DNA of 36,917 nt from Candidatus Geocrenenecus huangii. GTDB taxonomy: Archaea > Thermoproteota > Nitrososphaeria_A > Caldarchaeales > Wolframiiraptoraceae. The notes beneath the pieces were generated by a model. The model was not told the origin of the DNA. It searched no databases and saw nothing but the letters and a program-made list of their open reading frames with translations. Both the position numbers and the translations under genes were made by a program. Shown here piece by piece: positions 13,904 through 16,009 of the stretch. The stretch's first letter is position 1. Each line of letters starts with the position of its first letter. The stretch spans positions 1 to 36,917 of the forward strand of contig JALNKM010000011.1 in the NCBI GenBank assembly GCA_023268155.1, read 5' to 3'.

Positions 13904-14386
13904 ATGGCAAAGAATCTAGAAGATTTAGAAGACAAGAACACCAAAGTAATAGTCAGGGTCTCGCCTGTTTCTGAAGGCGACTTAGAAGAAGTATATCAAA
14001 TTGAGTTAGAATGTTTTGGGAGAGATGCTTACCCGAAGCTTGTTTTCAACTACTTGCTGAGAAACCCTAGGTCTATCTTCTTGAAAGCAACGATAGACAA
14101 CATTCTAGTAGGCTTCATAGCTGGATTATGCCATAGAGACGAATGCTTACTATATACGCTCAACGTTAAGAAAGATTTTAGGAGGATGGGCATAGGCTCA
14201 ATCCTTCTAGAAGCTCTTGAGAAGAAAGCCTTGGAATTGAATATGAAGAAGATAGTCTTGCAGGTTGAAGTGACGAATTCTCCCGCAGTCAACCTATATC
14301 TAAAGAAAGGATACTCAATCACAAGAATGATAAAGAATTATTATGGTTATAGAAGAGATGCATATGAAGCATGTAAGCTGCTATAA
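13904..14386 (+). CDS. GNAT family N-acetyltransferase (RimI-like)
   Basis: A 160-residue GNAT protein. The acetyl-CoA loop R93-R-M-G-I-G98 follows the strand LYTLNVKKDF, and the late motif NSPAVNLYLKKGY is typical of RimI-type acetyltransferases. Archaeal RimI-like enzymes acetylate protein N-termini; the substrate here is not shown. The gene starts a plus-strand run with the Mth938-like and radical SAM genes, spaced 35 and 19 bp. Confidence 0.88.
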   Translation: MAKNLEDLEDKNTKVIVRVSPVSEGDLEEVYQIELECFGRDAYPKLVFNYLLRNPRSIFLKATIDNILVGFIAGLCHRDECLLYTLNVKKDFRRMGIGSILLEALEKKALELNMKKIVLQVEVTNSPAVNLYLKKGYSITRMIKNYYGYRRDAYEACKLL

Positions 14387-14421: not shown

Positions 14422-14772
14422 ATGGCTCCAAGAATCAATGATTACGGATTCGGCTACATAGTGGTAGATGGGGTAAGATATGGTAGAGACTTGATAATAC
14501 TTCCCGGAAAGGTTATACCGAACTGGTGGAGGAAGGAAGGACACAGGATAGAACTTGAAGACCTGAAAGAAATTCTAGGAATAGATTTAGAATATATAGT
14601 AATAGGCACCGGATATTTTGGGAGAGTTGAAGTATCTGAGGAGGTAAAAAGAGAGTTAGAGGAAAAAGGTGTAAAGCTAGTCGTAGCTGATTCTAGGGTT
14701 GCTTGGAAGAAGTATAATGAGTTTATCGATAAAGGCGTAAAGGTATGCGGAGCATTCCACCTTACATGCTGA
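14422..14772 (+). CDS. Mth938-like domain protein
   Basis: A small 116-residue protein of the Mth938-like family (related to NDUFAF3/DUF498). It starts with PRINDYGFGYIVVDGVRYGRDLIILP and has the conserved YIVIGTGYFGRVEV and the late KGVKVCGAFHLTC. Function is not established in archaea; the eukaryotic relative helps assemble respiratory complex I. It lies between a GNAT gene and a radical SAM gene, so a role beside that iron-sulfur protein is plausible but is inference. TAGGA lies directly before the ATG. Confidence 0.82.
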   Translation: MAPRINDYGFGYIVVDGVRYGRDLIILPGKVIPNWWRKEGHRIELEDLKEILGIDLEYIVIGTGYFGRVEVSEEVKRELEEKGVKLVVADSRVAWKKYNEFIDKGVKVCGAFHLTC

Positions 14773-14791
14773 TAGACAACTGGGCTTTGAA

Positions 14792-16009
14792 ATGCTTAGA
14801 CCCATAGTTGAAGTAGATGAAGAATCTTGTAAGAGCTGCAGATTCTGTATAGATGTCAGCAGATGTATGAGCCCCTCTCAATGTATTGGGTGCCTCTCAT
14901 GCTACTGGAGCTGCCCATACAATGCAAGAAAGATCAAGTTCCTAGAACTTGAAGAGAAGAATGTAAGTATCTGGGTAGAGGATAGGGTATACCTTGTACC
15001 GTACCCTTCAACCCTGAAAGAAGCTCTAGAAAATATAGGAATAGCATTTGGGAAACCTGGTTCACGAAATCTATCTTCACCATGCAATCTAGGAGGATGC
15101 TGGGCTTGTAGCGTTATAGTAGATGGAAAACTCGAGAGGACATGTATAACACCTGTAAGAGAAGGAATGAAGATAAAGCTTGACGTAGAAAACATTGATC
15201 CCCTGAGAATAGTCCATGGCCCGCAGCCTCACAAGGTTGGTGGAAAGGGAACTCCATGGTGGGAAGTTGGTACAGGCTACGTCGAGGCAGCTATATGGGT
15301 TGCTGGATGTAATCTCAGATGCCCGCAATGCCAGAATTATTACGTAACATATGATAATGCTACAGACCCAGTAACTCCTAAAGAAGCGGCGAGGATGACT
15401 ACATGGTGTTTTAGAAGATATGATACCAAAGGTATAGCTATTAGTGGAGGAGAGCCAACACTTAACAGAAGATGGCTTACAGAATTCTTTAAGGAGGCTA
15501 GAAGGCTGAGCCCAGGGAAAAGACTGCATCTTGATAGTAATGGGACTACCATTACGAAAGAATATGTAGATGAGCTTTTCGAGGCTGGATGCAACAATAT
15601 CGGCATAGAGCCTAAAGCATCTAGAGTAGATACCTACATGAAGATTACGGGGATTACGGATAGAGAACTTGCAAAGAACTATCTCGAGAATTCATGGAAC
15701 ATAATAAGATACATTCTAGAGAATTATGGTGGTAAGATCTACCTAGGGGTGGGATTTGCATACAGTAGAGAATGGATGACCATAGATGAAGTAGAAGAGA
15801 TTGGGGAGAGAGTCGCATCGATAGATAGAGACCTCCAAGTGATCGCCTTAGACTACTTCCCATCATTTAGAAGAAGATCTATTAGAAGACCTAGCGTAGA
15901 AGAAATGCTCAATGTTAAGAAGAAGCTCGAAGATAGAGGTTTAAGAACGGTGATTGTACAGACGAGTGTAGGTCATTTCGGCCCATCCCAGAGCTCTAGA
16001 ACATATTAA
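14792..16009 (+). CDS. Radical SAM protein with N-terminal ferredoxin and [2Fe-2S] domains
   Basis: This 405-residue protein has three iron-sulfur regions in a row. Residues 1-50 hold eight Cys (13, 16, 19, 25, 31, 34, 37, 41) in CxxCxxC patterns, the second ending CYWSCP like a 4Fe-4S ferredoxin. Residues about 58-122 look like a plant-type [2Fe-2S] domain, with C98-x4-C103-x2-C106 and C118 (CNLGGCWACSVIVDG). The radical SAM core begins at C173-NLR-C177-PQ-C180, with ISGGEPTLN as the SAM-binding GGE motif. The core resembles pyruvate formate-lyase activating enzyme (COG1180). The target is unknown. It is the last gene of the GNAT/Mth938 run, 19 bp after the Mth938-like gene. Confidence 0.88.
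   Translation: MLRPIVEVDEESCKSCRFCIDVSRCMSPSQCIGCLSCYWSCPYNARKIKFLELEEKNVSIWVEDRVYLVPYPSTLKEALENIGIAFGKPGSRNLSSPCNLGGCWACSVIVDGKLERTCITPVREGMKIKLDVENIDPLRIVHGPQPHKVGGKGTPWWEVGTGYVEAAIWVAGCNLRCPQCQNYYVTYDNATDPVTPKEAARMTTWCFRRYDTKGIAISGGEPTLNRRWLTEFFKEARRLSPGKRLHLDSNGTTITKEYVDELFEAGCNNIGIEPKASRVDTYMKITGITDRELAKNYLENSWNIIRYILENYGGKIYLGVGFAYSREWMTIDEVEEIGERVASIDRDLQVIALDYFPSFRRRSIRRPSVEEMLNVKKKLEDRGLRTVIVQTSVGHFGPSQSSRTY

Follow-up and report, generated by a model that had tools for sequence, protein, structure and literature searches.

In the window (the whole stretch of DNA analysed, 36,917 nucleotides), positions 14,792–16,009 contain an intact ORF with an ATG start, which encodes a radical SAM protein of 405 amino acids; all window features described below lie, like this gene, on the forward strand. 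Along the protein, the Pfam domains Fer4 (E-value = 2.1 × 10−5), Fer2_4 (E-value = 2.8 × 10−6), and Radical_SAM (E-value = 2 × 10−21) follow one another in this order. Residues 8–46 (14,813–14,929) form a predicted compact dicluster ferredoxin domain, recognized by the Fer4 match at residues 28–46, by cysteine conservation, and by DSSP, with two sets of putative ligands, Cys13, 16, 19, 25 and Cys31, 34, 37, 41, the last followed by proline. Against the criterion of two CxxCxxCx3C[P] motifs, the second motif was standard, whereas the first read CxxCxxCx5C. Residues 56–133 (14,957–15,190) constitute a [2Fe-2S] ferredoxin domain (Fer2_4 score of 27.7 against a cut-off of 22.8 bits, together with profile matches in the PDB), with its four cysteine ligands in the pattern C98-x4-C103-x2-C106-x11-C118. 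A junction of residues 134–161 (15,191–15,274), marked by the invariant residues R139...H147-x-VGG-x-x-TP, leads to the radical SAM barrel at residues 162–391 (15,275–15,964), which resembles that of pyruvate formate-lyase (PFL) activases according to Pfam and Foldseek and contains SGGE (218–221), HxDxN (246–250), and K275. The Radical_SAM score (77.3 against 29.5 bits) and the CX3CX2C motif of the SAM cluster (C173, C177, C180, followed by QN; 15,308–15,331; invariant in 59 of 59 homologues) place the protein in the radical SAM superfamily. The original prediction had listed eight cysteines in residues 13–41, Cys98/103/106/118, a CxxxCxxC radical SAM site, and a CxxCxxC-x5-C spacing of the first group; the ORF translation agreed with it throughout, the site corresponding to Cys173/177/180 and the spacing to C19-x5-C25. 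It was equally accurate on the neighbouring genes: an Mth938-like gene of 116 amino acids (14,422–14,772; Pfam DUF498, E-value = 2.1 × 10−22) stops 19 bp short of the radical SAM gene's ATG and is itself preceded, at a distance of 35 bp, by a RimI-like GNAT gene of 160 amino acids (13,904–14,386; Acetyltransf_1, E-value = 2.4 × 10−17; 79.9 bits with the RimI model, below its cut-off of 86.4).

The AF2 model of the 405-aa protein had a pLDDT of 94.0 and a pTM of 0.93. In this model, DSSP assigned a strand–helix–helix–strand arrangement to the ferredoxin domain, with the central hairpin missing, and we take this domain to be a classical ferredoxin minus that hairpin. The best solved structures found by Foldseek were the PFL-activases 3c8f and 8fo0 (TMt of 0.74–0.75, barrel only), and in the comparison of sequence profiles with the PDB the barrel was likewise nearest to the PFL-activating enzyme, PFL-AE (E-value = 2.9 × 10−9). 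The [2Fe-2S] domain profile matched the N-termini of HydA1, of the formate dehydrogenase FdhA, and of the 75 kDa subunit of complex I. In one of the genomes carrying the enzyme (hereafter, carriers), profile residues 7–140 aligned across the C-terminus of a NuoF-like gene product and the beginning of the NuoG/HoxU-like protein encoded next to it, a pair that adjoins a hydrogenase-like gene (all three identities were read by eye from the sequences). At the level of sequence, this suggests a relationship between the N-terminal module and electron-relay proteins of the NuoF/NuoG/HoxU-like type. The family alignment had no conserved cysteine after C180; such cysteines would be expected for a C-terminal auxiliary cluster of the SPASM/twitch type. 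The chain is predicted to hold four clusters, namely, two [4Fe-4S] clusters, one [2Fe-2S] cluster, and the SAM cluster.

Full-length homologues were found in 61 of the 398 sampled genomes of Thermoproteota and in 36 of 163 genera, with one copy per carrier except for a single genome with two. The 15 cluster cysteines were retained in 57–59 of the 59 aligned homologues (all eight ferredoxin cysteines in at least 57) at identities down to about 43%, and the cysteine pattern is therefore not a product of chance. The exceptions were the L059 ORF, without the first three ferredoxin cysteines, which probably reflects a late start or a broken 5′ end, and L097, with one change. The CxxCxxC-x5-C spacing of the first motif was fixed in all 57 homologues showing the full pattern of eight cysteines; the spacer between the two ferredoxin motifs varied from 4 to 10 residues, both motifs lying within about 29–36 residues. 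The C-x4-C-x2-C-x11-C pattern of the [2Fe-2S] domain was conserved in the alignment, the barrel motifs were invariant or nearly so, and the junction residues R139, H147, G150, G151, T154, and P155 were invariant across homologues and corresponded to no standard domain. Homologues devoid of the extra cysteine sets, which would have spoken against the original prediction, were looked for among the 59 aligned sequences, in which these sets proved invariant or nearly so. Since the cysteine sets and the junction are conserved together, the predicted additional clusters are a constant feature of this family. Most homologue matches with a reported in-frame stop fell in uninterrupted ORFs, so that these stops look like a terminal stop included in the match; disrupted frames occurred only in L064 (7953–9200) and L091 (8007–8891), either by decay or by assembly error.

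The nearest named relative, with 74% identity, is encoded by Candidatus Geocrenenecus dongiae. The genus Geocrenenecus is presumably to be placed with Wolframiiraptoraceae (Caldarchaeales). Tungsten dependence has been reported for a cultured member of this family (PMC9246946). The tree of homologues contained two well-supported clades, A (40 rows, including the protein from the window) and B (20 rows). In this sample, genomes of genus g2 carried an enzyme of either clade A or clade B, never both, which hints weakly at an exchange of equivalents. One of the rows of clade B was L103 (3797–5011, reverse strand), a full-length homologue with all 15 cysteines from a deltaproteobacterial bin, where a gene of the metallo-beta-lactamase fold begins 6 bp after the enzyme. 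This copy lies on a contig of only 5.8 kb and was the only one among 148 genomes sampled from its phylum and 6 from its order; therefore, contamination or recent transfer is possible. The viral contigs and plasmids searched contained no relatives of the enzyme.

Tungsten/aldehyde oxidoreductases of the AFOR family, an anaerobe-type family, were encoded in 59 of the 61 carriers, compared with 286 of the 398 genomes overall. This co-occurrence fits a low-potential ferredoxin metabolism, and the enrichment may be due to kinship only. Together with weak matches of 14 family members to the tungsten-oxidoreductase maturase model TIGR04317, it could also be read as a sign that the enzyme matures these oxidoreductases or their cofactor. 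Such a role is extremely improbable, considering that 227 of the 286 AFOR genomes have no copy of the enzyme, that no AFOR gene was recognized among its annotated neighbours, and that two carriers, G232 and G236, gave no AFOR_N match.

None of the NCBIfam models reached its cut-off with the 405-aa protein. The nearest were NrdG2 (TIGR02495; 56.8 against 131.15 bits) and PFLA (TIGR02493; 43.0 against 231.75), while TIGR02494 (19.2 against 174.35), TIGR04041 (37.7 against 250.2), and the viperin model pVip (29.8 against 180) also remained below theirs. A defence role was considered and rejected, the PADLOC viperin match being weak (26.6 bits) and confined to the barrel. That NrdG2 and PFLA are the nearest curated models (NrdG2 in 58 of 58 members, best E-value = 1.7 × 10−19), that PFL-AE is the best fold match, and that D248 and K275 align with residues of the PFL-AE motifs "LDTNG" and "LDLK" would all be expected if the protein activated a glycyl-radical enzyme, either class III ribonucleotide reductase or a PFL-like protein, and carried a ferredoxin module relocated to its N-terminal end. 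We nevertheless regard this assignment as very unlikely, because the scores were far below every activase cut-off and the putative partners are missing from several carriers. Six carriers estimated to be 89–97% complete (G064, G152, G134, G140, G182, and G205) had no NrdD, PFL-like, or Gly_radical domain. A PFL-like domain was present in 12 and absent in 28 of the 40 carriers tested, the Gly_radical domain was absent in 9 of 11, including the window's genome (G000), and NrdD was missing in four of the five genus members and in the g3 carriers. No gene for a glycyl-radical enzyme occurred among the inspected neighbours. In the window's genome, NrdD, a class III ribonucleotide reductase, has its own NrdG2-like activase directly downstream (contig C12; L104, 2622–5464, reverse strand), and this activase shares with the 405-aa protein only a core of 90 residues at 31% identity. 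Within the limits of incomplete genomes, the six carriers and the separate activase of NrdD thus exclude the known glycyl-radical partners for the family as a whole, and for these partners the explanation is largely refuted.

The gene order GNAT–Mth938–radical SAM was kept in all five members of the genus, with a gap of 19–25 bp before the radical SAM gene, and DUF498 was more common in carriers (29 of 61) than in the remaining genomes (53 of 337; odds ratio of 4.9, uncorrected for kinship). Both observations are in line with the earlier proposal that the three genes make up a dedicated modification system; however, adjacency to DUF498 was absent in the other 56 of the 61 loci, and the neighbours in other lineages were different and clade-limited. 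The suggested check of co-occurrence also went against this proposal: DUF498 was found in 82 of the 398 genomes and together with the enzyme in 29, leaving 32 carriers without DUF498 and 53 DUF498 genomes without the enzyme. Where both genes shared a contig outside the genus, they lay far apart (for example, 89 kb in G380 and 205 kb in G279). The enrichment is real in the 398-genome sample but is confounded by kinship and an anaerobic lifestyle, and we consider a dedicated system highly improbable. The three genes are a local cluster at the genus level, not a conserved system.

Twelve clusters of close same-strand neighbours recurred, each confined to one or two related groups, and the genes involved included those for a TYW2/Trm5-like methyltransferase, a DUF438–hemerythrin–PAS protein, and an MFS transporter. 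At L070, L071, and L074, the enzyme is flanked on one side by the gene of a TRM5/TYW2-like tRNA methyltransferase and on the other by a gene of 394–400 amino acids without a Pfam match, with all three on one strand. In clade B (L079, L080, and L083), the enzyme is followed by the DUF438–hemerythrin–PAS protein and a small HTH protein, and both of these families also occur near the enzyme in another archaeal family (L086 and L088); a link to oxygen or NO sensing is possible. In carrier G140, only 28 bp separate the enzyme from an upstream gene with a lipoate-protein-ligase C-terminal domain (L048, 3352–3648, reverse strand). Among the loci compared, no neighbour was common to all lineages, which argues for a stand-alone enzyme.

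Taking up the domain content and order, the cysteine conservation, the fold, the distribution, and the missing fixed gene partners, we consider it rather probable that anaerobic Thermoproteota possess in this protein a stand-alone radical SAM enzyme, the N-terminal clusters of which supply low-potential electrons. Reduced ferredoxin would deliver single low-potential electrons to the compact 2[4Fe-4S] dicluster domain, from which they would pass through the [2Fe-2S] cluster of the xanthine-oxidase/HydA type to the CX3CX2C [4Fe-4S] cluster. The latter would cleave SAM to a 5′-deoxyadenosyl radical for hydrogen abstraction from a substrate that may be a protein or another large molecule. A macromolecular substrate is conceivable because the barrel, as in PFL-AE, has no C-terminal closing domain; the comparison of neighbours and co-occurrence among carriers revealed neither substrate nor partner. 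Occupancy by all of the clusters, the path and direction of the electrons, and the class of substrate are what we infer here. Of the original proposal of up to four clusters forming an internal wire, the first part stands as four predicted clusters conserved as a unit in one chain, while the wire would be the natural reading of this arrangement.

The direction of electron flow is not fixed by the sequence, and the clusters could instead accept an electron from a product radical. SPASM auxiliary clusters are thought to accept the product electron. The main rival to the wire from ferredoxin to the SAM cluster is accordingly an outward flow, in which the enzyme, like a SPASM dehydrogenase, would oxidize its substrate by two electrons overall, the second of which would go to ferredoxin. 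The same clusters could run in reverse, and carriers use ferredoxin-linked oxidations; even so, this export appears unlikely, given that the clusters are located ahead of the barrel, in ferredoxin domains of the relay type, rather than behind it in a SPASM/twitch domain, and that no substrate was found. Returning to the inward supply of electrons, we tentatively suggest, without regarding it as the likelier outcome, that this self-wired family, in which a single chain combines ferredoxin, [2Fe-2S], and SAM clusters, catalyses a radical reaction new to studied enzymes with no glycyl-radical partner, and that many anaerobic Thermoproteota have the substrate of this reaction in common.

Radical SAM enzymes depend on an external low-potential electron and are often inactive in vitro when a suitable donor is lacking. 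With a natural enzyme from a thermophile that has the relay built into the same chain, the delivery of electrons to the SAM cluster could be studied directly. The enzyme also marks an uncharacterized radical reaction across many anaerobic archaeal lineages. No paper on an architecture of Fer4, [2Fe-2S], and radical SAM domains was found in the literature searched, most subscription journals being outside the search; as far as this literature goes, ORF 14,792–16,009 encodes a previously undescribed kind of radical SAM enzyme.

Among known systems, PFLA (TIGR02493; 3c8f and 8fo0) shares with the 405-aa enzyme the radical SAM barrel, CX3CX2C, GGE, the LDxNG-like and K residues, and a chain without a C-terminal SPASM domain, but it has no N-terminal Fe-S domains, and its partner PFL is missing in most of the tested carriers. 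The NrdG2 activase (TIGR02495), the nearest curated model to the barrel, has a motif of the same GCNLRCPxCxN type, whereas it comprises only about 190–230 amino acids and no extra clusters. The glycyl-radical enzyme activases with a ferredoxin domain (TIGR02494, PFLE_PFLC type; for example, HpdA and CutD) are similar in combining, in a single chain, radical SAM with a 2[4Fe-4S] ferredoxin domain, which in the 405-aa enzyme is a predicted one. In these activases, the barrel chain contains the ferredoxin domain as an insertion, and we know of none with any [2Fe-2S] domain. The function of the auxiliary clusters in glycyl-radical activases is unknown (PMC11528403), and a relay role is therefore not automatic. 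The N-termini of HydA1, FdhA, and NuoG differ in that the [2Fe-2S] domain comes first and is joined to parts of hydrogenase, formate dehydrogenase, and complex I, respectively, with no radical SAM domain; they have the same type of [2Fe-2S] domain as the 405-aa enzyme, and in those proteins it serves as an electron relay.
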